NCBI RefSeq assembly: GCF_001045465.1
Contig: NZ_LFND01000003.1
Span: forward strand, 124,001 to 188,000
Direction: 5' to 3'
DNA from: Chryseobacterium angstadtii
GTDB taxonomy: Bacteria > Bacteroidota > Bacteroidia > Flavobacteriales > Weeksellaceae
Length of the DNA stretch: 64,000 nucleotides
Position 1 is the stretch's first letter, and the number at the start of each line of letters is the position of its first letter. The notes under the pieces are model-generated. The model was not told the DNA's origin and made no database searches. It worked only from the letters and a program-made list of their open reading frames with translations. Of this stretch, positions 7,166-33,821 are shown piece by piece. A program made the position numbers and the translations under genes.

Positions 7166-7612
7166 ATGCAAAAAAAGAGAATTTTTACGGAGATAGTAGT
7201 TGTATTATTGGTCATTTTGTTCCTCTATACTGGTGTAAGCAAATTTGTTGATTTTAAGGGGTTTACTTATGATTTAAATAATCAGCCCTTTCCGAATAGC
7301 TTAACACCATTGTTAAGGTGGTTAATACCAATAACTGAAATTTCAATTGTAATTGCTCTATTATTTGAAAAAGCCAGATTGATAGGTTTATATGCATCAT
7401 TGTTTTTGATGAGCTTATTTACAATTTATACAGCGCTAGTTCTATTTCATGTTTTTGAGTATGTGCCGTGTTCATGTGGAGGCGTCATAAAAAATCTAAC
7501 ATGGCCACAACATTTAATTTTTAACCTTTTTTTCGTTGTGATCACTTCACTCGCTATTCGAGTAAACAAGAAAAACTTGTCAGATCATTTACTTTATAAC
7601 CAGTTACAATAA
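7166..7612 (+). CDS. MauE/DoxX-like integral membrane protein
   Basis: Four-helix membrane protein of 148 aa (helices about 9-25, 50-67, 72-95 and 112-133). Residues 101-106 read PCSCGG, a cysteine pair facing one membrane side just before the last helix. MauE, needed for maturation of disulfide-rich methylamine dehydrogenase, belongs to this DoxX-like family, where the cysteine pair suggests thiol/disulfide chemistry. No methylamine genes occur here. Instead two exported small cysteine proteins follow, with only 98 bases to the first. Inference: it helps oxidise or handle those peptides. A homologous domain with the same motif heads the protein at 23376. Confidence 0.78.
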   Translation: MQKKRIFTEIVVVLLVILFLYTGVSKFVDFKGFTYDLNNQPFPNSLTPLLRWLIPITEISIVIALLFEKARLIGLYASLFLMSLFTIYTALVLFHVFEYVPCSCGGVIKNLTWPQHLIFNLFFVVITSLAIRVNKKNLSDHLLYNQLQ

Positions 7613-7980
7613 TTTAGATCAGTATAAATGAATTAAAATTATTGGGTCCAAAATAAGGGGAAGCTGAAAACCTTCAACTAGAGTAAGCAACAAATCAAAA
7701 ACTTTTTATTATGAAAAATTTTAAATTATTATTAGGTGCGGCAGTAGTATTTGCCGTTGGAAGCGCTTTTACTGCTAGCAACAAAGCTTATGCAGGAGAA
7801 TATGTTTTAATCGCTCCTAATACTTATGAGCTTAAAACAAATCGACCTGCCGGAGAATGCCGAGAAATGCCAAGTCAAATTTGTGATTATACCAAAATTA
7901 ATCCATCTGGCAGTAATACAGATCCAAATAACTTCACCCCTAATACGAGAAATGCCCAATGGGTTGAAGGTGAGGACTAA
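7562..7980 (+). repeat. Tandem duplication, copy 1
   Basis: First of two direct copies. It covers the last 50 bases of the mauE-like gene, the spacer and the first DUF6520-type gene. Copy 2 starts at 8238, offset by exactly 676 bases through the start codon. The spacer and first 60 coding bases are nearly identical between copies, and the 3' halves of the genes diverge. Confidence 0.88.
7711..7980 (+). CDS. DUF6520-type small exported protein, copy 1
   Basis: An 89-aa protein with a signal peptide (MKNFKLLLGAAVVFAVGSAF) and a probable cleavage site near residues 22-28. The mature part is about 60 residues, with two cysteines (Cys50 and Cys58, spacing C-x7-C) and a segment CDYTKINPSGSNTDPNNF shared with the next gene. 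The architecture matches the DUF6520 family of small Bacteroidota proteins, whose function is unknown. Position directly after a MauE-like protein and opposite a SusCD/thioredoxin block suggests a secreted peptide whose disulfide is formed or broken by its neighbours; this is inference. Confidence 0.75.
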   Translation: MKNFKLLLGAAVVFAVGSAFTASNKAYAGEYVLIAPNTYELKTNRPAGECREMPSQICDYTKINPSGSNTDPNNFTPNTRNAQWVEGED

Positions 7981-7985
7981 AGAAT

Positions 7986-8018
7986 ATTTAAGGTGCTATC
8001 ATTAATGGCACCTTAAAT
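7986..8018 (+). terminator. Intrinsic terminator after DUF6520 copy 1
   Basis: ATTTAAGGTGC pairs with GCACCTTAAAT as an 11-bp stem with an 11-base loop, starting just after the stop, followed by TTTG. It separates the first small-protein gene from the second copy. Confidence 0.75.
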
Positions 8019-8386
8019 TTTGTAGTGAATTTATTAATTTAATCTCTTTCTTTATTAGAGTTCTTAGATTTTGACTCCCATTATAAAGATATTTTAAACT
8101 TCTAACAGATTGTAAATTTACGTATTAATCGATTTATTTCACTATAATCTCCATTATATCTTGAAGTGGAAAATTAAAAGTCATACTCCAACTAAAGAGC
8201 TATTTTGATATTTTATGATTATGTTAATTACCATCCAGCAAACAAGATAAATTCGTCCAATCATTTACTTTATAACCCGCTAGAATAATTTAGATCAGTA
8301 TAAGTGAATTAAAATTATTGGGTCCAAAATAAGGGGAAGCTGAAAACCTTCAACCAGAGTAAGCAACAAATCAAAAACTTTTTATT
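8019..8386. other. Intergenic region between the two DUF6520 copies
   Basis: Bases 8019-8237 are AT-rich with no recognisable gene. Bases 8238-8386 duplicate the region before copy 1, including a decayed 3' remnant of the mauE-like gene (8238-8287) that has lost the rest of its reading frame. The conserved 100 bases before the ATG probably hold the promoter and leader shared by both copies. Confidence 0.7.
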
Positions 8387-8644
8387 ATGAAAAATTTTAA
8401 ATTATTATTAGGTGCGGCAGTAGTATTTGCCGTTGGAAGCGCATTTACTGCAAGTAATAAAGCTGCTGGAGAATATGTGCTAATTGGTTCTACTTACCAA
8501 TTAAAATCAAGTAGACCTTCGGGGGATTGTGTAACTCAGTCTAGTCAAACCTGTGATTACACTAAAATCAATCCGTCCGGTAGTAATACCGATCCTAATA
8601 ATTTCCAACCTTATCACACAAATGCTAGATGGGTTGAAGAATAG
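8238..8644 (+). repeat. Tandem duplication, copy 2
   Basis: Second direct copy of 7562-7980. It opens with a mauE 3' tail remnant (GCAAACAAG matching GTAAACAAG) and continues with an almost unchanged spacer. The gene inside is three codons shorter in the signal/mature junction region and diverges downstream. Confidence 0.88.
8387..8644 (+). CDS. DUF6520-type small exported protein, copy 2
   Basis: An 85-aa paralogue of the preceding small protein. The signal peptide is identical over the first 25 residues. The mature region keeps two cysteines (Cys48 and Cys56, again C-x7-C), the CDYTKINPSGSNTDPNNF segment and a C-terminal aromatic-acidic end (RWVEE). The two mature sequences differ mostly between the signal peptide and the first cysteine, which suggests either relaxed drift or diversification of a ligand-like peptide. 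It lies convergent to the thioredoxin-like gene and is separated from it by a bidirectional terminator. Confidence 0.75.
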   Translation: MKNFKLLLGAAVVFAVGSAFTASNKAAGEYVLIGSTYQLKSSRPSGDCVTQSSQTCDYTKINPSGSNTDPNNFQPYHTNARWVEE

Positions 8645-8656
8645 GAATAAGAACAG

Positions 8657-8703: not shown

Positions 8704-10206
8704 TTAAAGAAGTGAGTTTATTAATTGAATTAAATTCATCCTATTTTTTTCATCATATGGTCTAGGCGGATTTAAACTTGCAATCTTTCCCAACTTATCT
8801 ATAATTAATACTGTTGGATATCCACGTATATTATAATGACTAATAAGTTTTTCTTCTGAACCATTTCCGTTAGTATATAAGTTTAAACTTCCTCGATGCG
8901 AATATTCTAAACTTCGCACAGATTTAATCCACTCATATTTACTCTTGTCGATACTAATATTAATAAATTTTATTTTAGGATTATCTTTATAGATATTATA
9001 TATTTCAGTCATTTGATCGTTAAGAATACGGCAATTTGTGCAGCCTGTAAAATAAAAATCTATCAACAAAACTTTTCCTAAAAAATCACTTTGTTTTACG
9101 ACGTTTCCTAGAGTATCCTGCAAAGAAAAATTATATGCTAAGCTTCCTGCCAAAGAACTATCGCGATATTTTGTTAATAAGTCAATACAGTAAGGTGTTT
9201 TAACTGAATTTGTAACTTCAATAATAATATCAGAATATTTGTCAGATTGTAATTTTTTAACAAGTAAATATGAGGTTAACAACCTATCCTGAAATAGTCC
9301 GCTAAAATCCTTTCTAAGAAATGCAACTGCCTGAGGTGGAGGGAAGTCTTTTTTCCGTAAACCAGTTAATATAAAATCGTAGTAATAGTCGGAATACAGA
9401 AGAATATCTCTGTCAAATTTTTGGTCGAATTTTAATAAATTTTCAGAGTAAATCTTCTTTAGTTTATTTATACAAGAATCAGCAAATTCTTTATTTTGAG
9501 CATTAGCTTCGGAAGTATAAAAGATATAAGCTTGTTGGTAGTCATTTTTATACTTGAACGTTATATTAGCCTTTAGTAATGAATAAATTGATTTAGATAA
9601 TTTATCTCGGTATTTTTCCAATGCACCTAAAGCCGTCAACTTAGAATTTTCTAATGAGACAAAAGCATTATCAAACCTTCTTTCATAGCTTGTAATATCA
9701 GTTTTTCTTAAAGCAAAGTATTCATAACCATATATTTTCTCTAACTTTCGAACCGAATCTAAAGTTTGAACGGACAATTTTTTTAAATCTTTTTGGATAT
9801 CAAAAAAGAGTTCATATTTCTCTTTACCCTTTCCGGTAACAGTAATAATGTTCCTTTCAATATTAAAAGTTAAATCATCACCAGGTTCAATTATATAATT
9901 ATTAAATATTGTCTGCCCATTTTCTACAGATAAATCAGCATACAAAAATGATTCATTGTTCTTAAATTCAATTTTTATTCTTTCTCCAGAGTTGGAAGTT
10001 AAATTTTTATTATTAACACCTGAATTAGCACCCCATCCGTTATCCCAATAAGCTAATTTGATATTATTTTTTTTAGTTAAGTCATTTATGATAATTCTTA
10101 AATATGCCACTTTATTGCCGCCTTTCGAATTTGTTTGAATAGTTCGAGCATTAGCATAATTTACCAAAAGAATGCCTAATATTATAAATTTGACTATCAT
10201 TTTCAT
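8704..10206 (-). CDS. Exported thioredoxin-like (TlpA/AhpC-TSA) protein
   Basis: A 500-aa protein with a signal peptide (first 20 residues) and a long helical N-terminal region of the DUF4369/TlpA-associated kind (about 25-340). A thioredoxin fold at about 360-500 has its redox motif C-T-N-C near residues 386-389, in FYFTGCTNCRILND, and the cis-Pro region near GYPTVLIID. Such proteins reduce or isomerise disulfides in the periplasm. The ATG overlaps the SusD stop by one base (TAATG), indicating translational coupling. It takes the place that an S9 peptidase occupies in the parallel locus at 25-34 kb. Substrate inferred: the cysteine-containing small proteins encoded opposite. Confidence 0.85.
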   Translation of the reverse strand: MKMIVKFIILGILLVNYANARTIQTNSKGGNKVAYLRIIINDLTKKNNIKLAYWDNGWGANSGVNNKNLTSNSGERIKIEFKNNESFLYADLSVENGQTIFNNYIIEPGDDLTFNIERNIITVTGKGKEKYELFFDIQKDLKKLSVQTLDSVRKLEKIYGYEYFALRKTDITSYERRFDNAFVSLENSKLTALGALEKYRDKLSKSIYSLLKANITFKYKNDYQQAYIFYTSEANAQNKEFADSCINKLKKIYSENLLKFDQKFDRDILLYSDYYYDFILTGLRKKDFPPPQAVAFLRKDFSGLFQDRLLTSYLLVKKLQSDKYSDIIIEVTNSVKTPYCIDLLTKYRDSSLAGSLAYNFSLQDTLGNVVKQSDFLGKVLLIDFYFTGCTNCRILNDQMTEIYNIYKDNPKIKFINISIDKSKYEWIKSVRSLEYSHRGSLNLYTNGNGSEEKLISHYNIRGYPTVLIIDKLGKIASLNPPRPYDEKNRMNLIQLINSLL

Positions 10207-11588
10207 TATCGAATATTTTGAGTTAATGGATGAAAATTGATTTCTACAGGAGGGATTGGGAATACATACCTTGGACTATTGGCTTCTAGAGTGTAGATAT
10301 TTACGCCTATATTACGTGTTAGTTTTTTTGCAAATTTATCATCCATATTTAAACGGCGTAAATCTTCCCATCTTAAATTGGCAGTAAAGGGTAGTTCTTT
10401 TCTGCGCTCATTAATTATTAATAACAAAGCTTCAGTAGGATTTGAAGCTGTTTTATTTGAATATGTACTTCGTCCATTTTCTTTTTTCCACCTCTCTTTT
10501 AAAAGCTTGTTTAAGTCGTTCATTGCTTCAACAAAATTCCCCGATCTAGCCAATGATTCTGATCTAATCAAAAATATCTCGTTTGTAGCTATTCCACAAA
10601 ATAGTGCGCCTGCTCCTGTATATCTACCACCGAAGTTAATTGCGCCATTGGTATTTTTTTTGAAAAAAATTGCCTTACGAAGATCTTCATTTTCATATGT
10701 ATCAAATAAATCTTTCATTACACATAATTCCTGTCTACTGTTAAAAGTATATGAAATAGTTTGTGCATAAAATATAATTTCAGTATTATTACCTCGAACA
10801 GTAGGAAATGGAAAATTCACAGTTGTACTTAAGGTATTGAAATCAATAAGTTCTGAATTTTTAGAAAGGACAATATCTGCAAATTCTTTAGCCTTAGTAT
10901 AATTTTGCATATTAAAATATACTTTTGAAAGCATGCTTTCTGCCGCTAATTTTGTAGGCCGAGTTTTGTAACTGACTTGCAGAGGGAGTAAAGATTCGGC
11001 TTCAATAAGATCATTAATAATTCTATCATAAGTTTCTTTTAATGTGGAACGGTTTGGCAAATCATTTACATCGGAATTTAATTTAAGGGGAAGCCCTAGA
11101 TCTGAATCTGCGGTACTTTCATTGTATTGTTTCGCATATAATTGTGCTAACTGATAATATGCAAAAGCTCTAAAAAATAATGCTGTTCCTTTTACTTCTG
11201 GTATTCGAGTATCATTAATATTTTTAATTTTTTCAATGCCATCAAGTACTACATTAGAATATTCGATAACTTGGTAAGGATAAGTCCAGTCTGGAGCAAA
11301 TAACTCTCCCTCATAAATGTCGCTTGACCACTTATATGCATTTCTTTCTTGTAATGTACCACCAGAGATGGCAGTTTGATCTAAAATATAGGAATTGTCA
11401 GCACCAATTAATCCAATTGCAGGGTATTTGGTATTCATCACATCAGTATTATCTAGTAAAGCCTGAAAATCTTCAACGGTAGATGGGATAATATCTGATT
11501 TATTTGATTTTTTCTCTAACCATTCATCTTGCTTTTTACAACCAACAAGGATAAATGTACATATTGCATAGATTATAATATTTTTCAT
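10206..11588 (-). CDS. SusD/RagB-family outer-membrane lipoprotein
   Basis: Surface lipoprotein partner that caps a SusC-type TonB-dependent transporter and binds its ligand. A lipoprotein signal peptide ends in LVGC (lipid-anchored Cys17). The TPR-containing SusD fold fits the whole 460 aa, with typical features: DWTYPYQVIEYSNVVLDGIE, the KGTALFFRAFAYYQLAQLY helix pair and the C-terminal end NERRKELPFTANLRWEDLRR. The gene is nine bases downstream of SusC on the same strand, and its stop overlaps the next start. The ligand is not readable; no glycan-degrading enzyme occurs nearby, which argues against a polysaccharide utilisation locus. Confidence 0.9.
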   Translation of the reverse strand: MKNIIIYAICTFILVGCKKQDEWLEKKSNKSDIIPSTVEDFQALLDNTDVMNTKYPAIGLIGADNSYILDQTAISGGTLQERNAYKWSSDIYEGELFAPDWTYPYQVIEYSNVVLDGIEKIKNINDTRIPEVKGTALFFRAFAYYQLAQLYAKQYNESTADSDLGLPLKLNSDVNDLPNRSTLKETYDRIINDLIEAESLLPLQVSYKTRPTKLAAESMLSKVYFNMQNYTKAKEFADIVLSKNSELIDFNTLSTTVNFPFPTVRGNNTEIIFYAQTISYTFNSRQELCVMKDLFDTYENEDLRKAIFFKKNTNGAINFGGRYTGAGALFCGIATNEIFLIRSESLARSGNFVEAMNDLNKLLKERWKKENGRSTYSNKTASNPTEALLLIINERRKELPFTANLRWEDLRRLNMDDKFAKKLTRNIGVNIYTLEANSPRYVFPIPPVEINFHPLTQNIR

Positions 11589-11596: not shown

Positions 11597-14500
11597 TTAT
11601 TTTAATGTTGTCCTAATACCAAATGATACTGTTGTCGGATTTGGGTAGGAATTATAACCGGAAAGGTTATATTCACTAACATCCGGATCAATTCCTTTCT
11701 TATTTGCTCGCCACACTATACCAATATTATTTATATAACTATAAATTTGTAATGAGGAAATTGGAAGATTTCTAAGTAATTCCTTATTAAAATCATAACT
11801 AAGGCTAATATCCTGTAATCTTATATGGTCTCCTTTCTCAACAAGAGATTCAGAGCTTTGATAAAAAATATTGCGATTATAGTTGAATTCGTATAAGACT
11901 GAGGGAACTGTAGTTCGCGTTTCATCTCCTGGGTTTTGCCATCGGTCTTGAAATTCTTGATTGGCATATCCGCTATTTACAACGTCTGACAGGTTTAATG
12001 AGGTTGACCTTCGGCGAAAGTAATATCCAAATTTATATGTAACGTTAGCGGATAAAGAGATTCCTTTAAAAGAGAAAGTGTTACGTAATGCCCCAAAATT
12101 TCTTGGTCTTGACGAACCATGATATACAATATCTTCATTATTCGAACTTGTAATTATATTGAGGTAGTCTTTACTTATAACACCATTTAAATATCCCTGA
12201 GGATCTCCATTTGTTGGATCAAGTCCCGCTGTTTTAAAACTATATACTCCGAAAAGACTATTTCCTTCCTTGATATATAAACCATATCTTCCAGGACCAT
12301 CAATATTAAGCCCTGAACTTGTTAGATATTGCGAAGTATATTTTGTGTCATAAGATATTACTTTATCTTTATTATAACTTAATAGTATAGTCGTATTCCA
12401 TTTAAAATTACCATTAAGATTTACTGAGTTTAAATTAATATCAAAACCTTTTGTCTTAACAGTTGCGGCATTTCCTTTGTAAGAAGAAAACCCGGTTGAA
12501 TGTGCTAACAAAGCATCCTCGATAAGATCAGTACCCAACTTCTCATAAATTTCAAATGAACCATTCAAGCGATTACCTTTAGATGAAAAATCTAAAGCTA
12601 GATTTTTGTTTCTAATTTTCTCCCATCTTAATTCTGCGTTTGGGGCACTCGTGATGTAGGCAATTGGTAGTCCAGTAATTGGGCTGACATCATAGGTTGC
12701 CGTCAAATAGGATGAGGCATTATATACATTTCCATTATATCCAAATGATGCCCTTAGTTTTAAATAAGGTATTAACGAAAATTTATAGAACGATTCTTTG
12801 CTGATATCATAAGCAACACCAGTTGACCAAAGTGGTGTCATTTTATCATTTGTTTTCACTCCAAAAATGTTTGCACCATCTTTTCTTCCACTCAGTGAAA
12901 AAGTATATTTACCTAAATACGTGTAAGCGCCGTTTGCATAATAAGATATATATCTATTTGTATTACCTATAATTTTCCCAAGAGGAGACGGAAGAACCGT
13001 TGATCCAAGTGCCGATGGGTTCATTGGATAAGGAATATTATAATTTAAATTAGTCACAGAAGTTCCAAACTCATCATTGTAGCCATACAACGCTTTATCA
13101 GTACTCTCACTTACTATTTCTCTTATCTCAGCTCCCGCAATTGCAGATACTAAATGTTTTTGTGAAAATTCTTTATTGAAATTCAACTGTGTTCTGAAGT
13201 TATTGGAATACAATTTTCTGTCTGTTAAATAGAGAATTCCTCCTTTTGGAAAGGGGTATGTAAATGAGCCCTCACTAGATCGCTGGCTGTACATATTAAC
13301 GAAATTTCTCGCTTCATAACTTTCGGGACTTCTGTAACCACGATTATTTCCGAATTCATTTTCATGCTGATATTGAATTTCAGCATTTAAGAAATCAGTG
13401 AAATTATACCGGACAATGCCTCTTATAAGGATGTTATCAGTTTTAGTACTGGTATCATAAAGGTCTCTTTCTTGAATGGGTCTATATTTCCAATCTAAAA
13501 AGCCTAAACTTTGGCTATTTTCAAGATAACTGTCTCTTTTTCCATATGGTACCGCAAGCGGATTTTTATTATCATCAACAAAACTTATATATGGATACGG
13601 AGAAGTGTATTGATATCCAAATTTATTCTCACTCTTTGTATATAATACAGAACCTGTAATTTCCAAATTTTTAATGGGATGATATGTATTTGTTGAATTA
13701 ATAGTAAACCTATTGTTTCCAGAACCAAACAAGGTATTACGGTTTTTGTCATATCCTATAGAAAGTGAATAAATAGATTTTTCCGAACCTCCTCTAAAAC
13801 CCAATGAATATTGTTGATTCATACTGGGACGATAAAAATATTCGGATGTTTGGTCGCGAACATCCACATTTCTCAATCTATTTATTTGGTCAGTAATATT
13901 CTCATTTGAAGGATCATTTCTTTGTTTCGATAAAAGCTCAACTACTGGTGATATTACAGGATAGTAATTGTTGTCGTTTAAATTGGGATCATAATACCCC
14001 TTATTAAAAAGAAACGTTTCGACATCTATAAATTCAGAGGATTTAAGAAAATTTCTTGAATATTTTAAATTTGGCCTTGCCCCTACGGTTAAATTTGAAT
14101 TAAAATCAATCTTTAAGGGTTGATTAAATTTTCCTTTTTTGGTAGTGATTACAATGACACCATTCCCAGATCTCGAACCCCAGATCGAAGCTGCAGCAGC
14201 ATCTTTAAGTACTGTGATACTTTCAATATCATTTGGATTTATATTATTAATATCTCCTTCATAGGGAAAATTGTCAAGTACAACCAGAGGATCAGCGCTA
14301 ACTTTATCATCAATTGTAACTCTTCCTCTTATGCTTATTCCTAATTTTTCATTCGGAGGATTTAACCCTATTGGACCTGAAATTTTATTAAAAATCAATC
14401 CACTTGTAACACCGTCCAGTCTGTCTAAAATATTCGTGCTAACACGTCTGTTTAATAATTGGTTATCTATTTGGACAAATGAGCCCGTTGCTCGTTCTTT

Positions 14501-15196
14501 AGGTATGTTTTGATATCCGGTCGAAACAACATCTACTATTCCAATAATATTATCGTTTTGATGCATAATAATATTACCTGAATTTATTACAGGAACTTCT
14601 ACTGGTGTATAACCGATAAATGAAACTTGAAGTACCTCGTCCTTTAATGAACCAGGGATCATAACAATTCCATTTGCATCTGTCATAAAGTTTACATTGC
14701 TTCCTTTTACTCGAAGAGAAGCTCCGGACAACGGTTCACCCCGTTCATTAGAAACCTTTCCTCTTATGGGAGTCTGATCTTTATCTATTGGGTTTTTAGA
14801 ACCTGTTTCCTTCCCCCTATCGACAGAAACTATAATTTTTCCTTCAATAGAATAATCGAACGGTTGGTCATTGAAGATTTCATCTAGAACCGCTTTTAGA
14901 TCTTTTTCCTTTGCAGATATAGTGACAGCCTTAGCAATCTTCATATGCCTGCTATTTATTGAAAAAGAATAGCCCGATTGCTGGTTAATCTGGCGAATAA
15001 CAGTCCTGAAAGGTGCATCTTTTTGGATCAATGTTATTTTTTGTGCAGTAAGTTTTGTGCAAGCGAGAAAAATAATCAATATAAAAAATATTAGGTTTTT
15101 CATGACTTGTCTTTTTTCTAATTGTTTTTCATTGGTTTTCCGTTTCCATAGGGGAATAGAAATCGGTTTACCATTGTCGATAATGGTATTATTCAT
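11597..15196 (-). CDS. SusC/RagA-family TonB-dependent outer-membrane transporter with STN domain
   Basis: Imports a ligand across the outer membrane using TonB energy. Of 1199 residues, the first 31 form an N-terminal extension common in this family; a signal peptide follows (M32 to about 52, ending LTAQ). Next come an STN domain (about 55-110) that contacts the anti-sigma FecR, a carboxypeptidase-regulatory-like domain (about 142-222, PIRGKVSNERGEPLSGASL), the plug (about 225-350, with IKVL-type ESITVLKDAAAASIWGSRSGNG) and the beta barrel. The STN domain plus adjacent FecR and sigma genes indicate cell-surface signalling: ligand binding induces the operon. An alternative start is Met32 at 15103. 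Confidence 0.93.
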   Translation of the reverse strand: MNNTIIDNGKPISIPLWKRKTNEKQLEKRQVMKNLIFFILIIFLACTKLTAQKITLIQKDAPFRTVIRQINQQSGYSFSINSRHMKIAKAVTISAKEKDLKAVLDEIFNDQPFDYSIEGKIIVSVDRGKETGSKNPIDKDQTPIRGKVSNERGEPLSGASLRVKGSNVNFMTDANGIVMIPGSLKDEVLQVSFIGYTPVEVPVINSGNIIMHQNDNIIGIVDVVSTGYQNIPKERATGSFVQIDNQLLNRRVSTNILDRLDGVTSGLIFNKISGPIGLNPPNEKLGISIRGRVTIDDKVSADPLVVLDNFPYEGDINNINPNDIESITVLKDAAAASIWGSRSGNGVIVITTKKGKFNQPLKIDFNSNLTVGARPNLKYSRNFLKSSEFIDVETFLFNKGYYDPNLNDNNYYPVISPVVELLSKQRNDPSNENITDQINRLRNVDVRDQTSEYFYRPSMNQQYSLGFRGGSEKSIYSLSIGYDKNRNTLFGSGNNRFTINSTNTYHPIKNLEITGSVLYTKSENKFGYQYTSPYPYISFVDDNKNPLAVPYGKRDSYLENSQSLGFLDWKYRPIQERDLYDTSTKTDNILIRGIVRYNFTDFLNAEIQYQHENEFGNNRGYRSPESYEARNFVNMYSQRSSEGSFTYPFPKGGILYLTDRKLYSNNFRTQLNFNKEFSQKHLVSAIAGAEIREIVSESTDKALYGYNDEFGTSVTNLNYNIPYPMNPSALGSTVLPSPLGKIIGNTNRYISYYANGAYTYLGKYTFSLSGRKDGANIFGVKTNDKMTPLWSTGVAYDISKESFYKFSLIPYLKLRASFGYNGNVYNASSYLTATYDVSPITGLPIAYITSAPNAELRWEKIRNKNLALDFSSKGNRLNGSFEIYEKLGTDLIEDALLAHSTGFSSYKGNAATVKTKGFDINLNSVNLNGNFKWNTTILLSYNKDKVISYDTKYTSQYLTSSGLNIDGPGRYGLYIKEGNSLFGVYSFKTAGLDPTNGDPQGYLNGVISKDYLNIITSSNNEDIVYHGSSRPRNFGALRNTFSFKGISLSANVTYKFGYYFRRRSTSLNLSDVVNSGYANQEFQDRWQNPGDETRTTVPSVLYEFNYNRNIFYQSSESLVEKGDHIRLQDISLSYDFNKELLRNLPISSLQIYSYINNIGIVWRANKKGIDPDVSEYNLSGYNSYPNPTTVSFGIRTTLK

Positions 15197-25233: not shown

Positions 25234-25242
25234 GTTCGAAGA

Positions 25243-25272: not shown

Positions 25273-27776
25273 ATTTGCTTATTGATCCATGGAACATCTT
25301 TTATATCTTTCAGAAAATAATCGAACCATTCTAAGATCTTTTCGTCCCTGTCTTTCTCCTCGAGAGGATGATGGAGAAAATCGTGATTACCATTTTTATA
25401 TAAAAGGGCTATCACCTGTTTTTGATAACGTCTAAGACCAATATAAAATTCCATAACCTGGTCCAATGGCACGTTTTCATCCTTCTTTCCTCCCCATAAT
25501 AAAATTGGTGATTTGACATTTTCAACATTTAAAATAGGACTATTCAGTAAATATTTTTCTTTATCTTCAGCCACTGAGTCTCCCATCTTGAACTGCCCAG
25601 TTTCATAAAAGAAATAAAACGGTTTAACATACTGATAACTATAAGAATGGTAACTGCTGATCAGATCACTGAAACCTGCTCCTGATACATATGTCTTAAA
25701 GCGCTGCGATTGTGTGGCGATGAAATTGGTTTCATAACCACCATACGAATGTCCTAAAAGCGCGATTCTATCCTGATCAATTAGAGGGTTTTTCAATAAA
25801 GCATCCAGCGCGCTATTTACGCATTCTAAAGCTGACATGCCGGGGCCATCCTTGCCTTGTTCTATATCGGGGAGATATACAAAATACCCTCGTTCCAATA
25901 AAGTCCTGATCTGGAATCCTACAGGTGATACATTATTTGGAGAAAGATAATCATTGCTTAAAGTCCGTTGTACCTGATAGATATGGACTACCATTGGATA
26001 TTTTCCCTTTGGATCATAGTCTATTGGATAGTATAAAATACCCCTTAGATTTTTTCCAACAGCTTTGAAATTATAAATTTTCTGTTTGATCTTTTGTGCT
26101 TCAACATCCTTAATTCCGGCATTGAACAATTTATTTTTATGTCCATTGACATAGGAATACAATGTAGGAGGCTGGTTGAAATTTCTTTCCAACGTATAAA
26201 AGGATGTCATATTTCTGTTGAAAAGTAGATGATCAGAGTCAATCCTGTTTTCTGTTTCCGGTACAACCTCTTTCCATTTTCCCTTGCGGTACATATTGTA
26301 AAAAGTTTTATTTGAATAATTATCATATACTTCCAGCAATATGGAATCTTCCGGTAAAAATGAATTTAATGTACTTTCACCAAATTCGTTAGTTTGATTT
26401 TTAATTTCAACTTTTTTTCCTTTTGCAATGCCCAAAGCGGTCAACTTCTTTCTATTGATGTCATATTTCCAGAGGTCGTCACTGCTTTCAAAATAAATTT
26501 GATTGCTGTTTGCCGTAAAAACAGGTTTTTCAAGACCAAATTTTTCTATTAAGGCTTCTCTCTTGCCCGAAGTACTGAACAAGGACCAATTTTTACCATC
26601 ATTGCTCGCTAGGAACAACCTGCCATTCTTGGAACAAAAAAACCTATTTCCCACAAAGTCGGGTCTCCAACCTTTTGTTAAAGTAGGTATTTGTTTTAAG
26701 CTGCCGATTGCTGTTAAACTTTCTGTTGATATATCAAATATATAGGCATCATTGATATCTGGCGTAAACGTATTAAAATTGTAATCTTTTCTAGGTAGAT
26801 AGGTCAGAAAATATCGAGCATTATTTAAAGATTCAAGTACATGGTTCTCCTGAATTTTTAATGACTGCAGTTTATTCGCTATCGTATCCCATAACCAGTA
26901 TTCGTTATTTACGTACATTCTTTTATGTAGGTTGACAAATGGATCATTGCCATACCATATGTCAACCAAGGAAGACTGCTCTTCGGAGAATCTTACCCTT
27001 GAATTGATGAGAAAGTACTTTCCATTTTGAATTTCCGTCAAACTTAATTCTGATTTGCTTGGAACGTTTAATTGAATTACCTTTTTATAGTCATGTTCTG
27101 AATCGAGTATAGTCAATTGATTATGTCCTTTCTGAATCTGAACTTCTGTAATGAGTAGCTGTTTGCCTGATGGCGTAAGTTCGATCTTTGATATTCGATT
27201 TTCTGTTGAATATACAATTTCTTGTCTTTTACCCGTTGTTTCAAGGATCTTGGCTTTTCCTTCACTCTGCCTTACAACATATAGCTTACTTTTTGAGTCT
27301 GTTGCCATAAGACCATCAATGTCTGCCATTTCCTGTAGCTGATTGCCCGTCAGATCATAAAAAATAAGGTGCTTATCTCTGGAGTAAATGGCATATCTAT
27401 TTAAATTATCCAGCCGATAATAATTGCTGGCATTATTATATTGGTATATTTTACCAGTCTTAAGGTTCAGAAACTGTAATTGATCGGCTTTTCTCCCAAA
27501 AACCCCTTCTTCATTAAGAAAGTCCAAAACTCCCGTCGATACAATTTTATGTATTGTCTTGTCCTTTGTGCTAACAACATAAGCCGAATCACCACCAAGT
27601 TTATACTGCTTATTGATTCCTATCCATGTTCCTTCAGATGAAATCTTGGGAACCCCGCCCAATGTTGCAAATTTTGCCTTCCATTGGGTTAAGGTATCCC
27701 CCTGCTGTTGAGCAGGTATAAATATGAAGCCGTTAAGAATTATGGAAACCAGTAAATATTTGATCTTAATAGCCAT
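25251..27776 (-). CDS. Exported S9-family (prolyl oligopeptidase-like) serine peptidase
   Basis: Exported peptidase of 841 aa expected to cleave short peptides. A signal peptide (about 1-22, ending PAQQ) is followed by a beta-propeller-like region (about 50-570) and an alpha/beta-hydrolase domain. Catalytic residues are visible: Ser near 675 in GHSYGGYE, Asp near 763 in GGKKDENVPL, and His near 797 in GNHDFLHHP. Its start overlaps the SusD stop by 11 bases. In locus A the corresponding slot encodes a thioredoxin-like protein. A peptidase here supports a peptide, not a glycan, as the SusCD ligand (inference). Confidence 0.88.
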   Translation of the reverse strand: MAIKIKYLLVSIILNGFIFIPAQQQGDTLTQWKAKFATLGGVPKISSEGTWIGINKQYKLGGDSAYVVSTKDKTIHKIVSTGVLDFLNEEGVFGRKADQLQFLNLKTGKIYQYNNASNYYRLDNLNRYAIYSRDKHLIFYDLTGNQLQEMADIDGLMATDSKSKLYVVRQSEGKAKILETTGKRQEIVYSTENRISKIELTPSGKQLLITEVQIQKGHNQLTILDSEHDYKKVIQLNVPSKSELSLTEIQNGKYFLINSRVRFSEEQSSLVDIWYGNDPFVNLHKRMYVNNEYWLWDTIANKLQSLKIQENHVLESLNNARYFLTYLPRKDYNFNTFTPDINDAYIFDISTESLTAIGSLKQIPTLTKGWRPDFVGNRFFCSKNGRLFLASNDGKNWSLFSTSGKREALIEKFGLEKPVFTANSNQIYFESSDDLWKYDINRKKLTALGIAKGKKVEIKNQTNEFGESTLNSFLPEDSILLEVYDNYSNKTFYNMYRKGKWKEVVPETENRIDSDHLLFNRNMTSFYTLERNFNQPPTLYSYVNGHKNKLFNAGIKDVEAQKIKQKIYNFKAVGKNLRGILYYPIDYDPKGKYPMVVHIYQVQRTLSNDYLSPNNVSPVGFQIRTLLERGYFVYLPDIEQGKDGPGMSALECVNSALDALLKNPLIDQDRIALLGHSYGGYETNFIATQSQRFKTYVSGAGFSDLISSYHSYSYQYVKPFYFFYETGQFKMGDSVAEDKEKYLLNSPILNVENVKSPILLWGGKKDENVPLDQVMEFYIGLRRYQKQVIALLYKNGNHDFLHHPLEEKDRDEKILEWFDYFLKDIKDVPWINKQIKKKAPF

Positions 27777-29136
27777 TATTCTGAGGTTTGAGATTTAGAT
27801 TGAGGAGAATTTCATTTTGGGGGATCGGCCAAAGTTTATGAAAATCCTTCCAGTTAGGCTTTGCAGTTGACAATAAATTGAGTTTATCCATTCTCTTCAG
27901 ATCAAGAAACCTATGTCCTGTTTCAGTAAAGAATTCACGTCTATCTTCCAAAAGGATTTCATTAAGGAGATCAGCTTGGCTTAAGTTGGTTAATGCCGCT
28001 AAACCTGCCCTTTGTCTTATCGAATTTAAATAAATAAGCCCTTCGGTGAGTTTACTCTGCTGAGCCAAAGATTCTGACAATAAAAGATAAGCTTCTTCCA
28101 CCCTGAATATGATAGAATACTCATTAGCATTTGTATTATCGCGATTTTTGTATTTTTCAGCTCTATACCATATTGATCCATTATAGGATACTGACGCCAT
28201 CCAGTGCTGTTTTCTTAGGTCATTAGAGTTGAAGGAGTTTACGAGATTCATATTCAACGCATAAGAACTAGGCTTTGCATTTGAGAAATAGTATAAGGTA
28301 GCCTGTTTCAGAGAAGCATTATTAATAGGTTTTAATTGCCAAAGAATGTGTTTACCTGACTTTTGAAATACTTTTGTTATATCGGTTTCTATTTGATAAA
28401 GCGAAGATTGGGTAATTTCTTTTAACAATTGTTCTGCCTGATTCCAATTTTTCTGTGCCATATAGATCTTTGCCAGTAGAAGCCTTGCTGTCATTTTATT
28501 GGCATATATCCGTTCAGCATTTCGATAGTCATCCTGCAATAGTGTCAGGACCTGTTGAAGATCTTCTACCATTTTTTTCAATGCATCATTTGAAGGTGTT
28601 TTATTTAAAATCTGATTTATTGTGTAATCCGTTGTTTCAGGATATGGAATATCCCCCCAAAGTTGGTTCAAATAAAAAAACATTAACGTTCTAATAAATA
28701 AAGCTTCTCCCTTCAAATACTTTTTGTCGGACATTGAAATCCCGTTAGATTTATCAACACCTTCAATAATAGCATTAGCTGTATAAATATGTTTAAAAGA
28801 TGAAACCCAGATATTGTATACGGTTTGATTCGTGTCAGTTTGTTGGTTTAGATAAAGTTCCCTAGTTGGAGTAATCGTTGTACTGAATTCATCCAGTTCA
28901 TCCGTATAAACGCCTAAGGCGGCATCAAGATTCACTCCTGAAATCGGGGAATTTGACATTACATCGGCATATAAAGCCGATAATGCAGCGTTAGCTGTTT
29001 GAAGATCCTGAAATACTTCGTTGCTGGCAATCTGATTATTCGGTAGATCAACGTCAATCAATTTTTCGCACGAAATCGAAAAATACAATGAGAAAGATGC
29101 GAGAATGCATGTGTATAAATATTTAAAATTTTTCAT
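27766..29136 (-). CDS. SusD/RagB-family outer-membrane lipoprotein, locus B
   Basis: Ligand-binding lipoprotein partner of the adjacent SusC. The signal peptide ends SISC (Cys23). SusD hallmarks are the opening KLIDVDLPNNQIASNEVF, the TPR-type LKGEALFIRTLMFFYLNQLWGDIPYP and the ending EDRREFFTETGHRFLDLKR. The 456 aa span the full fold. It lies 11 bases after SusC and overlaps the peptidase start, consistent with a single susC-susD-peptidase transcript. Confidence 0.9.
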   Translation of the reverse strand: MKNFKYLYTCILASFSLYFSISCEKLIDVDLPNNQIASNEVFQDLQTANAALSALYADVMSNSPISGVNLDAALGVYTDELDEFSTTITPTRELYLNQQTDTNQTVYNIWVSSFKHIYTANAIIEGVDKSNGISMSDKKYLKGEALFIRTLMFFYLNQLWGDIPYPETTDYTINQILNKTPSNDALKKMVEDLQQVLTLLQDDYRNAERIYANKMTARLLLAKIYMAQKNWNQAEQLLKEITQSSLYQIETDITKVFQKSGKHILWQLKPINNASLKQATLYYFSNAKPSSYALNMNLVNSFNSNDLRKQHWMASVSYNGSIWYRAEKYKNRDNTNANEYSIIFRVEEAYLLLSESLAQQSKLTEGLIYLNSIRQRAGLAALTNLSQADLLNEILLEDRREFFTETGHRFLDLKRMDKLNLLSTAKPNWKDFHKLWPIPQNEILLNLNLKPQNNGY

Positions 29137-29147: not shown

Positions 29148-32100
29148 TTAAAAATTTAACTGTAGTCCGAAAGAGTATGTTCTTAAGGGAGGAAGAAAAC
29201 CTGAGATTATTGCCTCTGGATCAACACCAAAGAATTTAGTCCATGTTATTAAATTCTGGCCCTGAAAGTAAATTTTAGCACTTTTAAAAGGACTTGACGA
29301 CATCGGTATATTATAACCAAATTCTAGGTTTTTTAATCTTACAAAGGATGCATCTGAAACAGCAGCAGTACTTCCTTTAAATAAATTATGATTGAGCAAA
29401 TTTTTTGATGCACTATAAGGCATATATGTTCCGTTAGGATTTTCGGCAGACCAAACATCCAGTACTTCCACAGGTTGGTTAACCATTGTACCCGGAAGAG
29501 GCATAATTGAATTTTGGTTATAGTTTTTCTTTTTGACGAATTGAAATAAAAAATATAAATCCCAATTTTTATATCGAATACTGTTATTTATGCCACCAAA
29601 AAATTTAATTTGAAGATCTTCAATAACCTGACGGTCATCTGGAGAAGATATTTTGCCGTCTCCATTAAAATCAGTGAACTGATAAAGTCCTGTCTGCGGA
29701 TTAATACCTTCCAATTGATATAGCTTAACAATCTGCGTTGAAGAGCCAATGGAATATTGACTTGCATAAGGTGAACCGGCTAGACCTGGAAATGATAACA
29801 GTTTATTTTTAGGGAATGTTATATTAAGATTAGTTTCCCAATTAAAGTTCTTAGTTGAAACTGGTCTTGCATTTATTTCAAATTCCAGTCCGGTATTCTG
29901 CACTGTAGCGTCCAGATTTGCTGTCACACTTGGAAATCCAGTTACGGCAGATAGTTGGTAGCCAACCAATTGATTTGAAGATCTATTACGATAATATGCT
30001 AAATTAGTAGTAATACGGTTGTCCAAAAAACCTAGTTCAATTGCAGTTTCAAACTTTCTTGTTTTTTCCCAACTGTAATTGGGATTAAATAGTCTGGCAG
30101 GTAACAGTCCGGTAATTCCATTGTATATTAATGTTGAGGAAACATTATAATTATCCAAAAATTGAAAATCCCCGATATTATCACTTCCTGTCGAACCATA
30201 GCTACCGCGAATCTTACCAAAAGATAACCATTTAGAATCCTTTAGAAAATTTTCCTTTGTAAAGATCCATGCGGCTCCCAACGCTCCAAAATTTGCAAAT
30301 CTGTTATTAGGTCCAAAACGACTGCTCCCATCACGTCTACCAGTAACATTCAGGATATAACGATTTTTATACTGATAATTTAACCTACCAAATAATGCGG
30401 CATATCTATATTCAATAGATGATTGGTCGCCCATTCTTATCGTTTTTGCAGCGGAAACATTTGTAATAAACTGATTGCTTTCAAATCCTATTCCTGTAAT
30501 TTCATCAGTATTCCTAACATTTCTCTGAAAACTTCCCCCTATCAAAAAATCAATTTTATGGTTTCCCCAATTTTTTGACCAGTTTAATTGAGGTTCAATA
30601 ATGAAAGAAAATATATCCTGATCTTTTTTTCTTGATTGTGAAGTTGCACTGGAAGCACCGCTTGCAAGGGATGGATTATTGACTGTATTGGGAAGTAGAG
30701 ATAATTCATTTATTGCCGTGTAATTTAATCCTGCATTAATCTTAAATTTCATATCCGAGTAAAGCTTGTAATCAGCGTTTATATTAGTTTGAAAGAGCTT
30801 GGTATCGTTACTATAAGTGGCATTAAAGGCCGCTAAAGGATTGTTAAAAGTATTTCCGGCCCAATTTAAACTTCCATCTTCATTATAGAGCAGAGGTGAT
30901 ACAGGTGGTAGCGTATAACTACTGCCAGTAATATCAGTTCTAACAACATTGTTTTTCTGATTGGTAAACATATTAGATAAACTGAGCTGAAAGCGGTTAT
31001 CCTTTGAACGATGTGACAGATTAGAATTAAAAGTATTGCTGAGATATTTATAACCTTGTCCAAAAGGAGTTGTCTGCTCATTGTGTCCGAGGCTGACTAA
31101 AAAACTGGTTGTTTCACTACCACCGCTCAATGAAAGTTGGGTGTTACTATAGGTTGCTTTGTTTCCGATCAATGTTTTTTCCCAATCTATTTCATTGTTT
31201 CCCCAAGCGCCATTAAGATCATAGGCTGTTGCCGGATAGTTTACAACTCCGTCATTCAGGTAAGCTGTACGGCGCATGTTAAGGTATTGGTCCTTGTTTA
31301 ATAATTTGAGGTTGGAAATAGCCTCACTTATACCGTAATTGGTTGTAAGTCGTACACTCAGTCTACCTGATTTACCTTTTTTAGTGGTTATTAATATAAC
31401 TCCGTTTGCTCCTCTGGAACCATAGATAGCAGTCGCATCAGCATCTTTTAGTACCTCAATGCTCTCGATATCACCCGGATTTATGCTATTTAATGGATTA
31501 ATCTTACCAGAAGGCATCACTGTAGCGCCGATTTGCGTGTTTTCAGCTGTTATTTCACTTAAAGGTACACCATCAACCACATAGAGTGGAAGATTACCGT
31601 CAATCGAGGAATTCATACTTGTTCTTAAACTATTCTGTCCCCTGATCTGTATTGTAAACCCTCCACCGGGAATACCGGAATTTTGCGTGATATTAACTCC
31701 TGACATTCGGCCCTGCAAAGAGGATAATACATTCGTTACAGGCTGGTTTTCGATATCTTTTGCCTTAACCTTTGAAATACTTCCAGTGCTGTTCCTTTCG
31801 GTGACTTTATAGTATCCGGCATTTAAAGTGATTTCTTCAATTTTTGTTTCTTTACCCGCAAAAGACTCGGATTTTAATGTGTCAACAGGTAAACTTTGAT
31901 CTTGTGGAGTTATTTGGCTAATTGCTTTAATTTTCTTTTCGCGAATGACAACCGTATTATTAAAAATGGTTGTTTCAAAGGGTAATTCCTTGAATAACTT
32001 CGCAAGGCAATCCATTAATAATTCGTTATTGCATTTTGTGCTTGGCACTTTGTAGTTTATAAATGACTTCTTTTTATAAGAAAAACGACGTATTTTATTT

Positions 32101-32243
32101 TCCTTCAAAAAGAGTTCAATTGCATCAACTGCGGGTAATGCTTCCGAATCATAATTTACTCTCATGGTAGAGAGATTCTCTTGGGCATTAAGACCCTGCC
32201 ATCCGATCAAAAAGAACACGGCGGCTTTGTACAAAATTTTCAT
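29148..32243 (-). CDS. SusC/RagA-family TonB-dependent transporter with STN domain, locus B
   Basis: TonB-dependent transporter of 1031 aa. A signal peptide (1-20, GLNAQ) and an STN domain (about 28-102) are followed by a short linker and the plug (about 135-290: GYYKVTERNSTGSISKV, LQGRMSGVNI, EVLKDADATAIYGSRGANG), then the barrel ending in a C-terminal Phe. Unlike the locus A transporter it lacks the carboxypeptidase-regulatory-like domain between STN and plug, which accounts for most of the length difference. The STN domain and adjacent FecR/sigma genes indicate ligand-induced surface signalling. Confidence 0.92.
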   Translation of the reverse strand: MKILYKAAVFFLIGWQGLNAQENLSTMRVNYDSEALPAVDAIELFLKENKIRRFSYKKKSFINYKVPSTKCNNELLMDCLAKLFKELPFETTIFNNTVVIREKKIKAISQITPQDQSLPVDTLKSESFAGKETKIEEITLNAGYYKVTERNSTGSISKVKAKDIENQPVTNVLSSLQGRMSGVNITQNSGIPGGGFTIQIRGQNSLRTSMNSSIDGNLPLYVVDGVPLSEITAENTQIGATVMPSGKINPLNSINPGDIESIEVLKDADATAIYGSRGANGVILITTKKGKSGRLSVRLTTNYGISEAISNLKLLNKDQYLNMRRTAYLNDGVVNYPATAYDLNGAWGNNEIDWEKTLIGNKATYSNTQLSLSGGSETTSFLVSLGHNEQTTPFGQGYKYLSNTFNSNLSHRSKDNRFQLSLSNMFTNQKNNVVRTDITGSSYTLPPVSPLLYNEDGSLNWAGNTFNNPLAAFNATYSNDTKLFQTNINADYKLYSDMKFKINAGLNYTAINELSLLPNTVNNPSLASGASSATSQSRKKDQDIFSFIIEPQLNWSKNWGNHKIDFLIGGSFQRNVRNTDEITGIGFESNQFITNVSAAKTIRMGDQSSIEYRYAALFGRLNYQYKNRYILNVTGRRDGSSRFGPNNRFANFGALGAAWIFTKENFLKDSKWLSFGKIRGSYGSTGSDNIGDFQFLDNYNVSSTLIYNGITGLLPARLFNPNYSWEKTRKFETAIELGFLDNRITTNLAYYRNRSSNQLVGYQLSAVTGFPSVTANLDATVQNTGLEFEINARPVSTKNFNWETNLNITFPKNKLLSFPGLAGSPYASQYSIGSSTQIVKLYQLEGINPQTGLYQFTDFNGDGKISSPDDRQVIEDLQIKFFGGINNSIRYKNWDLYFLFQFVKKKNYNQNSIMPLPGTMVNQPVEVLDVWSAENPNGTYMPYSASKNLLNHNLFKGSTAAVSDASFVRLKNLEFGYNIPMSSSPFKSAKIYFQGQNLITWTKFFGVDPEAIISGFLPPLRTYSFGLQLNF

Positions 32244-32289
32244 ATTTTTGTAACGTATTTATAATTAATAATTCATCGAACAGTTATTG

Positions 32290-32340
32290 GTTGAATACAT
32301 TGGCCGACGGTCGCACCCGTCGGTCATTTTCTTATTCAAC
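32290..32340 (-). repeat. Two-tier hairpin between fecR and susC, locus B
   Basis: On the minus strand a perfect 8-bp outer stem (GTTGAATA with TATTCAAC) encloses a GC-rich inner stem (CCGACGG with CCGTCGG, loop of six). No T run follows, so it is not a classical terminator. It occupies the same position as the hairpin at 15239-15296 and may control susC mRNA ends or translation. Confidence 0.65.
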
Positions 32341-32402
32341 ATTTAAATTTTCGGCTTCACGTGTCGTCACTGAGCGAGGGCATAATTAAAGCCCATAGTT
32401 TT

Positions 32403-33209
32403 TCACTCCAATTGAAATGTTTTATCATTGATTTGTTTTATTTTGAAATCCAGCTGGAAAGCAATGATTTCAATAAGGGATTTAGCGGTAGAATTAGTAG
32501 ATGAAATCGTAATCTTAACCACCTTATCTTTATCAGGGATTATCATTTTTACGTTATAGGTTTCTTCTATGATTTGGGCTACTTTACTTAGTGAGCAATC
32601 GTTGAAGGATAAACTTGATTTAAGTTGAGATTCTGTTGACCGTGATGTGGCAGATATTCTTGCAACTTGTACAGTTCCCAAATTTGAAAACGTTTCTTTT
32701 GGTTTTAGTTCAAATGATTCGTTAGGTTTTTCAGATCTATAGACCAACACCTTACCTTCATACAGGTCAACACTGAAAGATTTTTCATTTTGATAAATCT
32801 TAAAAACGGTTCCCAATACTTTAGTCTCATAATTTCTACCATGAACAATAAATGGATGTTCTTTTGATTTAGAAATTTTAAAGATTGCGTCTCCATCAAG
32901 TGTAACTTCACGTGTATCTGAAGGAAATGACTTTTCAACAGTCAGCTTCGCTCCTTTTTGTAAAATTACTTCTGATTTGTCAGGCAGTAAGACCTTACGA
33001 GGATCAGAAACGGCCATATAGACATCTGGCTTAATCAAAAAATTATAGCCTAAAACGCTACCACTTAAAATCACGACTGCAGCAATGCCGCCGTACATTA
33101 TATTTTTACGATTTCTTTTTTGCTTTTCTTTACGACGAATAGCGATTAAAGCATTTGTCCATACTTTATTCTCTTCTTCCTCTGTGAGATAGGGAAAATT
33201 GTCTTTCAT
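32403..33209 (-). CDS. FecR-family anti-sigma factor, locus B (short)
   Basis: A 268-aa anti-sigma regulator, shorter than the 381-aa copy in locus A. The cytoplasmic part (1-37) is reduced, with one helix at about 39-58 (MYGGIAAVVILSGSVLGYNF). The FecR domain (about 70-165) includes RKVLLPDKSEVILQKGAKL and GDAIFKISKSKEHPFIV. The DUF4974-like C-terminus (about 195-268) has SLSFNDCSLSKVAQIIEETY. It probably controls the sigma factor encoded 87 bases upstream. Confidence 0.9.
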   Translation of the reverse strand: MKDNFPYLTEEEENKVWTNALIAIRRKEKQKRNRKNIMYGGIAAVVILSGSVLGYNFLIKPDVYMAVSDPRKVLLPDKSEVILQKGAKLTVEKSFPSDTREVTLDGDAIFKISKSKEHPFIVHGRNYETKVLGTVFKIYQNEKSFSVDLYEGKVLVYRSEKPNESFELKPKETFSNLGTVQVARISATSRSTESQLKSSLSFNDCSLSKVAQIIEETYNVKMIIPDKDKVVKITISSTNSTAKSLIEIIAFQLDFKIKQINDKTFQLE

Positions 33210-33296
33210 AAAAGAGCCTTTATTATGTATAGGAGAACGGAGGAAAAAACCACACGGTTTTTATGAAAAATTAACTTATTTTATGATACTTTAACA

Positions 33297-33821
33297 TCAT
33301 TTAGTAATTTTCACTTTGTCTCTCAGGTAGATCATAGATTGATGTATATGCTTTTCAACCGTTCTTTTGGAGATATTGAAATTAGCGGCAATTTTCTCTT
33401 GCGTGACACCCTCTATTTTATTCATTTTGAAAATTTTTCTACGAAGCGGAGGAAATAACTCTTCAATTGCTGTTTCTATTTCTGAGAGATTTCGCTCCTT
33501 ATTTTCTGCAATGATTAAATCTTCATGCGAAGTATCGGAAAAATGTAAGGGTAGATCGCTAGTTTTATCGATTTTTGCGTTCCTATAAAAATGTGCTATT
33601 TCCTGTTGGCAGGTTTTTACAACTATGCTTTCAATATTGCCAGCATCCAGTTTAGACCGATATTCCCATATATGAATAATGACATTCTGAAAGACATCCA
33701 AAACATCGTCCCTATTATTGATCTTTTTATAAATGAGAGAAAATATTAGTGGATTAAATTTATGAAGAAGCTTATGATATTGTTGTTCTTCAATTCTGAT
33801 ATGTCGGTTAAGAGACCACAT
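33297..33821 (-). CDS. ECF sigma factor, locus B
   Basis: Sigma-70 family factor of 174 aa. Region 2 (about 20-85) shows FSLIYKKINNRDDVLDVFQN and IHIWEYRSKL; region 4 (about 115-170) has an HTH in GVTQEKIAANFNISKRTVEKH. It is more divergent from FecI than the locus A sigma, and the region 4 HTH has a LuxR-like look. A TAATTTTG sequence (minus strand, 33840-33833) matches the Bacteroidota -7 element but would leave a very short leader. Partner of the FecR encoded next. Confidence 0.88.
   Translation of the reverse strand: MWSLNRHIRIEEQQYHKLLHKFNPLIFSLIYKKINNRDDVLDVFQNVIIHIWEYRSKLDAGNIESIVVKTCQQEIAHFYRNAKIDKTSDLPLHFSDTSHEDLIIAENKERNLSEIETAIEELFPPLRRKIFKMNKIEGVTQEKIAANFNISKRTVEKHIHQSMIYLRDKVKITK

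Follow-up and report, generated by a model that had tools for sequence, protein, structure and literature searches.

A membrane protein of the MauE family, a small cysteine-containing peptide and a facing pair of SusC and SusD proteins form a recurring gene set in many Bacteroidota. Two examples lie within a 64,000-nt stretch of the Chryseobacterium angstadtii genome (5.2 Mb, 11 contigs; contig NZ_LFND01000003.1, positions 124,001 to 188,000), hereafter termed the window. Block A (7166-17113) carries MauE and two DUF6520 peptides, A1 and A2, on the forward strand, which face a reverse-strand run of TlpA, SusD, SusC, FecR and an extracytoplasmic function (ECF) sigma factor. Block B (23376-33821) harbours a MauE-propeller fusion and one peptide, facing S9 peptidase, SusD, SusC, FecR and ECF sigma factor in the same arrangement. 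Our preferred reading, held tentatively and with a little under even confidence, is that of a private loop, in which a disulfide-bonded peptide is made, exported, likely re-imported by its own SusC/SusD pair (SusCD) and opened by S9 or TlpA. No published description of a MauE-DUF6520-SusCD locus was found in literature searches.

Recurrence of the locus and its constant core

Named loci were obtained by a reverse query of species genomes with the MauE-propeller alignment of block B, the best 80 of 587 confirmed matches being kept, and counts use the 74 of these with at least 9 kb downstream. Facing or next to the MauE-propeller gene, DUF6520 is present in 73, S9 in 71, SusD in 70 and SusC in 69, with SusC expected by chance in approximately 5 of the 74 (0.07 per locus, an upper-bound density from first-look counts). 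The loci are distributed amongst Chryseobacterium, Sphingobacterium, Pedobacter, Flavobacterium, Myroides, Kaistella, Epilithonimonas, Empedobacter, Chitinophaga and other genera. Over 125 loci, the stop codons of MauE and S9 are separated by a median of 345 nt. The original prediction had staked itself on DUF6520 co-occurring with MauE and SusCD more often than chance allows, and this is borne out, far above chance and in several families.

Draws of genomes display the same picture. Within the family (120 genomes) PF20130, the DUF6520 profile, was matched at E 0.001 in 32 genomes, one of them (G092) with four matches, and above its cut-off in 25; 36 of 40 loci outside the window's own genome have a DUF6520 gene by the profile built here. 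SusC faces the peptide in 33 of these 36; two of the remaining three end at a contig edge (L056, L064) and the third (L065) has none in its remaining 2.2 kb. Across the phylum (395 genomes) PF20130 was found in 25, and of 29 loci in other families 20 were analysed, 19 of which contain both SusC and SusD, with nothing in L086. Thirteen loci from another family of the same order follow the plan of block B, 12 with S9, and six more distant loci (L073, L080, L087-L090) have a free MauE and a plan like that of block A, with TlpA in three and ECF/FecR in L089. The annotation profiles started from genes of the window and were extended with related loci, so that divergent genes can be missed.

A second peptide type emerges from loci with a strong MauE match (at least 93 bits) and no PF20130 match nearby. 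Fifteen of 17 such loci were analysed, two contig-edge examples from one genome (G044) being left out, and three of the 15 (L093, L095, L103) gave only 3-7 kb, lying on short contigs or at contig ends. All of the remaining 12 have SusD-SusC. Four carry a DUF6520 gene that PF20130 had missed, and the other eight (L097-L102, L105, L106) encode a different peptide after MauE, of approximately 105 amino acids (aa), with an export-type leader and two cysteines, for which no Pfam match was found in the two scanned. None of these eight has S9, and none has the RF02914 RNA described below, as judged by pattern. Housekeeping MauE proteins of the BT_3928 type (a frame of approximately 370 aa, typed by length) share the Pfam domain, but have neither the peptide nor, in any of five chosen loci, SusC or SusD. 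Since second-type loci retain MauE, a cysteine peptide and SusCD, and housekeeping MauE loci lack the latter two, these three constitute the constant core, to which S9 or TlpA is an addition. As read from sequence, which together with one predicted model is the source of all signal peptides and topologies given here, DUF6520 peptides share a conserved Sec-type leader; the mature part holds four cysteines in 93 of 96 B-type peptides and two in those of block A.

Co-divergence of the peptide with other parts of the locus

Divergence of the mature peptide was compared with that of other parts in 96 loci (50 for the tetratricopeptide repeat, TPR, domain of the regulator), using 500 permutations. 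The highest correlations are with the SusC barrel (0.67), S9 propeller (0.65), SusD (0.63) and MauE propeller (0.60), followed by its own leader (0.51) and the membrane part of MauE (0.44). Given the MauE membrane part, partial correlations remain at 0.58 for SusC, 0.57 for S9 and 0.52 for SusD, and no permutation of the 500 was as high. As every part tested beats the permutations, this test demonstrates linkage and not specificity, and it is the ranking that serves as evidence. The lead of SusC over the MauE membrane part is 0.23 (bootstrap interval 0.14-0.32), although distance alone would predict the reverse, MauE being the closer neighbour of the peptide gene. The mature peptide is more divergent than its leader (mean 0.74 vs 0.58). 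Within S9, the N-terminal 500 aa diverge by 0.79-0.85 per 100 aa compared with 0.56-0.60 for the catalytic part, and the triad columns are retained (Ser and Asp in 40 of 40, His in 39 of 40). We read this ranking as suggesting a match of both importer and peptidase to the peptide, but not of the TPR regulator.

A number of observations weigh against this reading and against the loop built upon it. Five of the 74 named loci are without SusC, and the 80 from which they come are best matches only and related, such that their counts are not independent trials. The partial correlations of the leader (0.36) and MauE propeller (0.47) likewise beat all 500 permutations, the lead of SusC over the MauE propeller is narrow (0.07, interval 0.01-0.12), and, all loci being linked blocks, co-divergence may partly reflect shared descent. 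Divergence of the TPR sensor is not in step with that of the peptide (correlation 0.17, partial 0.06). Among solved structures, the block B SusC is matched by several SusC homologues and, lower down, by RagA, and peptide specificity is thus not to be had from sequence. In G704, a relative with both blocks, peptide A1 is 95.5 % identical to that of the window but TlpA only 37 %, an imbalance that speaks against close coupling between the two in that genome. Lastly, passage of the peptide beyond the periplasm, its import by SusCD and its sensing are steps that we infer. The original prediction of such a peptide system is accordingly supported in part, by co-occurrence and by co-divergence of the peptide with SusC and S9.

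A proposed private peptide loop and its rivals

Under the private loop, the RF02914 pseudoknot would set translation of the peptide, which Sec would then export, and MauE, with its propeller in the periplasm, would oxidise or guide the peptide's cysteines. The peptide would leave the cell, to be captured and imported by the cognate SusD and SusC, after which S9 would cleave it or, in block A, TlpA would reduce it; import or its product may then feed back via FecR/ECF or an AraC-type regulator. Release, recapture and feedback are the least supported of these steps.

The closest parallel is offered by lasso peptide clusters, for which PMC9266682 describes an isopeptidase of the prolyl oligopeptidase (POP) family, with an N-terminal propeller, that cuts only its cognate peptide, alongside a TonB transporter and sigma/anti-sigma factors. 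A gene-encoded peptide, an S9/POP peptidase with N-terminal propeller, a TonB-type receptor and FecI/FecR are common to both, whilst the locus here differs in a peptide that is likely Sec-exported and disulfide-bonded, in its MauE-propeller, and in having SusCD in place of a lone receptor. Our best reading, by analogy, is that the locus may work like the lasso/isopeptidase loop with another peptide chemistry. The block B S9 was rejected as an isopeptidase of the Atxe2 family (49.6 bits, where 400 is required), and no lasso maturation genes were recognised in Pfam scans of the block genes, no dedicated model having been run.

Bacteroidota import across the outer membrane chiefly by means of SusCD pairs, the majority of which are assumed to take up glycans. 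If the private loop holds, an orphan SusCD family would gain a directly testable substrate, a peptide of approximately 65 residues, DUF6520 and MauE-propeller proteins would gain a function, and RF02914 a target set. Bacteroidota would also possess a counterpart of the lasso/isopeptidase loop, the purpose of which is an open question (PMC9266682).

Amongst the alternatives, DUF6520 could be a periplasmic, disulfide-bonded inhibitor or plug that silences S9 or SusCD as long as no outside ligand is present. Co-divergence of the peptide with the S9 propeller (the partial of 0.57 above), the sandwiching of its gene in the short interval between MauE and S9, and the failure to identify an outer-membrane exporter among the genes examined would all suit such a role. 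We nonetheless consider it unlikely, given that all eight second-type loci, along with block A, keep MauE, peptide and SusCD without S9; S9 is thus not the common partner, and a plug of SusCD would be the version that still fits. An ordinary nutrient locus, importing outside oligopeptides or another ligand with the small protein as an accessory to uptake or sensing, has in its favour that the combination of SusCD and a secreted peptidase is commonplace in uptake loci, that these are usually controlled by AraC or ECF/FecR, and that RagA is among the solved SusC relatives. RagAB of Porphyromonas gingivalis has a peptide role, and such uptake loci share SusC/SusD and ECF/FecR or AraC-type control with the blocks described here, which differ in also encoding a candidate ligand and a thiol protein. 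A polysaccharide utilisation locus was rejected, as no glycan-degrading enzyme was found by Pfam scan in either SusCD operon, their enzymes being thioredoxin-like and S9, in line with what had been predicted. That MauE is constant, that an RNA precedes the peptide in 71 of 74 named loci and that the mature part varies more than the leader are all left unexplained by nutrient uptake, which strikes us as rather improbable.

The variability and probable disulfides of the peptide, the presence of several loci per genome, and the occurrence of RF02914 elsewhere before peptides with double-glycine-like leaders (by eye) could also suggest an antagonist that enters relatives via the same SusCD, with S9 or TlpA protecting the producer. 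The producer would, however, keep its own entry port, no dedicated immunity gene was seen in the loci, and lasso peptides of the isopeptidase type are, according to PMC9266682, without antimicrobial activity, astexin-1 excepted; we regard this reading as similarly improbable. A carrier of metal or cofactor, recaptured with its cargo in the manner of a siderophore, would agree with re-uptake through a TonB-type receptor under sigma/FecR control and with an enzyme that opens the returning peptide, and the same idea has been raised for lasso peptides (PMC9266682). Besides the cysteines, which likely form disulfides, there is no constant motif for binding cargo, and no gene for metal uptake was recognised among those of the locus, making this a doubtful proposition. 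Similarly doubtful, to much the same degree, is the notion of a polymorphic self-peptide pheromone loop on conjugative elements, comprising an RNA-controlled peptide, MauE-propeller and cognate SusCD and S9, whereby cells would sense neighbours with the same element and an RteC-family regulator encoded alongside would tune transfer. Pheromone-controlled conjugative elements are known from Gram-positive bacteria, and resemble the present case in having peptide genes on a conjugative element; an RteC-family gene in many loci is the sole pointer to a role in transfer here.

Gene parts, regulators, RNA and the carrying element

The genes, strands and coordinates originally given for both blocks were confirmed from the sequence and its open reading frames, and family calls were checked with Pfam and NCBIfam profiles (Table 1). 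As predicted, the MauE proteins of both blocks carry PCSCGG, a motif invariant among 30 aligned MauE proteins, and all three small proteins lie above the PF20130 cut-off; a role for MauE in disulfide formation of an exported protein is putative. The propeller of MauE B comprises approximately 300 C-terminal aa (predicted model with a local-confidence score, pLDDT, of 84.5; propeller matches). Domains of both ECF sigma factor and FecR (including FecR_C) were found in each block, the pair adjoining SusC.

Table 1. Features of blocks A and B and of the region between them (positions in the window)
Feature	Position	Strand	Evidence
MauE (A), 148 aa, PCSCGG	7166..7612	+	PF07291 113.5 bits, cut-off 27
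RF02914 DUF805b RNA before peptide A1	7654..7689	+	37.0 bits, gathering score 35.6
DUF6520 peptide A1, 89 aa, two mature cysteines	7711..7980	+	PF20130 26.2 bits, cut-off 25.4
TlpA-like gene remnant, decayed 3' end	8029..8228	-	tblastn pieces, TlpA residues 341-445, 406-nt target, E 2e-4, 3e-4, 0.018
RF02914 RNA before peptide A2	8330..8365	+	36.5 bits
DUF6520 peptide A2, 85 aa, two mature cysteines	8387..8644	+	PF20130 31.4 bits
TlpA-like thioredoxin, C-T-N-C	8704..10206	-	Thioredoxin_8 53.4 bits
SusD (A)	10206..11588	-	SusD-like_3 121.7 bits
SusC (A)	11597..15196	-	TIGR04056 507 bits, cut-off 368; STN 28.2 vs 28.4
FecR anti-sigma (A)	15319..16464	-	PF04773 71.8 bits
ECF sigma (A)	16529..17113	-	Sigma70_r2 45.4 bits
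TPR-AraC regulator, membrane-spanning stretch (by eye)	17220..18965	-	TPR_12 32.1 bits (above cut-off), HTH_18 31.5 bits (under its 33.6)
TraG/VirD4 coupling protein, conjugative element	20324..22324	+	YWFCY 155.6 bits
260-aa helix-turn-helix-like protein, directly upstream of MauE B	22456..23238	+	weak HTH_18, 23.4 bits
MauE fused to beta-propeller (B), 531 aa	23376..24971	+	PF07291 104.5 bits, cut-off 27
RF02914 RNA within 3' end of MauE B frame	24918..24952	+	40.8 bits
DUF6520 peptide B, 86 aa, four mature cysteines	24973..25233	+	PF20130 39.8 bits
Terminator-like hairpin	25238..25271	+	scan, + strand only
S9 peptidase; S677, D766, H798 on conserved columns	25251..27776	-	PF00326 91 bits
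SusD (B)	27766..29136	-	SusD-like_3 68.7, SusD_RagB 54.2 bits
SusC (B)	29148..32243	-	TIGR04056 651 bits, cut-off 368
FecR anti-sigma (B)	32403..33209	-	PF04773 46.1 bits
ECF sigma (B)	33297..33821	-	Sigma70_r4_2 39.2 bits

Other elements of the original prediction require modification. The sigma/FecR plan is indeed shared by both blocks, but is not the common plan, being present in 19 of the 74 named loci compared with 44 for TPR-AraC; similarly, the thioredoxin of block A, correctly recognised alongside the S9 of block B, is a minority version (0 of 40 family-draw loci, 3 of 20 phylum-draw loci). Description of the SusC proteins as STN-type is not clearly borne out, that of block A falling just under the STN cut-off and that of block B having no match; in four other FecR-type SusC, STN reaches 15-16 bits (L133, L134) or is without a match (L140, L149). 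The bidirectional terminator does not hold either: at the block B junction a hairpin with a T-run is found on the forward strand only, the sole reverse-strand match of the terminator scan (24902-24876) falling inside MauE B, and at the A2/TlpA junction the scan returned none, the only one in that area following peptide A1 (7986-8018, forward strand).

Within block A, the A1 unit is duplicated as A2 (7600-8386; 436 nt, 82 % identity), encompassing MauE tail, RNA and peptide. The decayed TlpA end separates the two peptide genes, and a TlpA piece occupies the same place between two peptide genes in G704 (L212).

With regard to regulators, 42 of the 74 named loci have TPR-AraC only, 17 ECF/FecR only, two both and 13 neither; other AraC-type genes were present in the two loci with neither that were checked. 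TPR-AraC relatives are divergent from MauE in 44 of the 74, and exclusion between the two sets gives a Fisher P of 3e-6 (134 loci, relatedness not corrected). Sigma/FecR is therefore one of two nearly exclusive regulator sets, of which TPR-AraC is the commoner and is usually accompanied by an RteC-family gene. This coupling is seen in AraC-type loci among L032-L106 and L132-L211. An RteC-like gene is present in 59 of 81 AraC loci. In MauE-propeller loci, 61 of 62 RteC-like matches lie upstream of MauE on the opposite strand, at 2.43-2.50 kb in the 12 listed, and adjoin the TPR-AraC gene in mapped loci. Five of the eight second-type loci also have an RteC-like gene, three of them Pfam-confirmed. 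The window's own TPR-AraC gene sits between the blocks, adjoining the sigma factor of block A, and homologues of the 260-aa helix-turn-helix-like protein are directly upstream of MauE in 16 of the 17 named loci with ECF/FecR only.

The RNA preceding the peptide genes is RF02914 (DUF805b), of which Rfam reports three copies in the window at gathering threshold, each 20-21 nt ahead of a DUF6520 start codon; by score, all three are members of the family. Of 56 DUF6520 genes in the loci analysed, counting those of the window, 54 have it upstream, the two without it being second tandem copies (L043, L044, the pattern match in L044 being spurious). By pattern, 67 of 74 named loci have it, and Rfam adds four. 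The gap to the start codon is 17-29 nt in 52 of 53 measured by pattern and 69 nt in L080; the block B copy was counted by its Rfam match, since the pattern there ran too far. Its loop pairs with the 3′ tail to form a pseudoknot, with two-sided changes at all four pairs (40 two-sided-change cells vs 13.7 in shuffles; 0 of 500 shuffles as high) and pairing of 87 %, compared with at most 34 % in every slid register, whilst no more than 26 of 51 form the outermost pair. The DUF6520 link and the covarying loop-to-tail pairs were found here, although the RF02914 source paper may already draw these pairs.

The same RNA occurs 15-26 nt before many unrelated accessory genes (L012-L022 in the own genome; L112-L131), and it is thus a shared control element rather than one specific to this locus. 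Thirteen of its 16 matches in the own genome are not at DUF6520, 12 of these having a frame that starts 19-26 nt on, as do 23 of 26 chosen sites in relatives, at 15-25 nt. By eye, the genes that follow elsewhere encode peptides with double-glycine-like leaders and caspase-like, tail-collar-like, DUF805-like and lipoprotein-like proteins.

Both blocks are cargo of one conjugative element, as the window holds integrase, RteC, mobilisation and Tra genes (Phage_integrase, RteC, TopB, DUF1896, YWFCY/TraG, relaxase, MobC_2, TraM, DUF4138), profile matches that identify a CTnDOT-like element. At least one backbone gene, RteC-like genes excluded, was found within up to 10 kb on each side of 29 of the 80 named loci, and position differs by element, being beside TraG/relaxase, beside TopB/DUF4099 or after TraM-type genes. 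G704, probably Chryseobacterium elymi, carries this element too, and the order of its two blocks is unchanged. Identity to the window is 73-94 % for named backbone genes, 85 % for SusC and 71 % for SusD of block A, and 44, 39 and 63 % for the peptide, S9 and SusC of block B, respectively.

Between the blocks, 19214-19477 encodes a small protein of 87 aa, whose N-terminus resembles that of a lipoprotein (by eye) and which matches no family above cut-off; a relative (43 %) is at the equivalent place in G704. Past block B, a transglutaminase-like protein and a Tox-REase-7 protein (34409-36911) possibly mark a polymorphic-toxin region, and a VgrG/GPD-like spike protein (Phage_base_V, Phage_GPD; 59064-61106) follows the TraM/DUF4138 genes.

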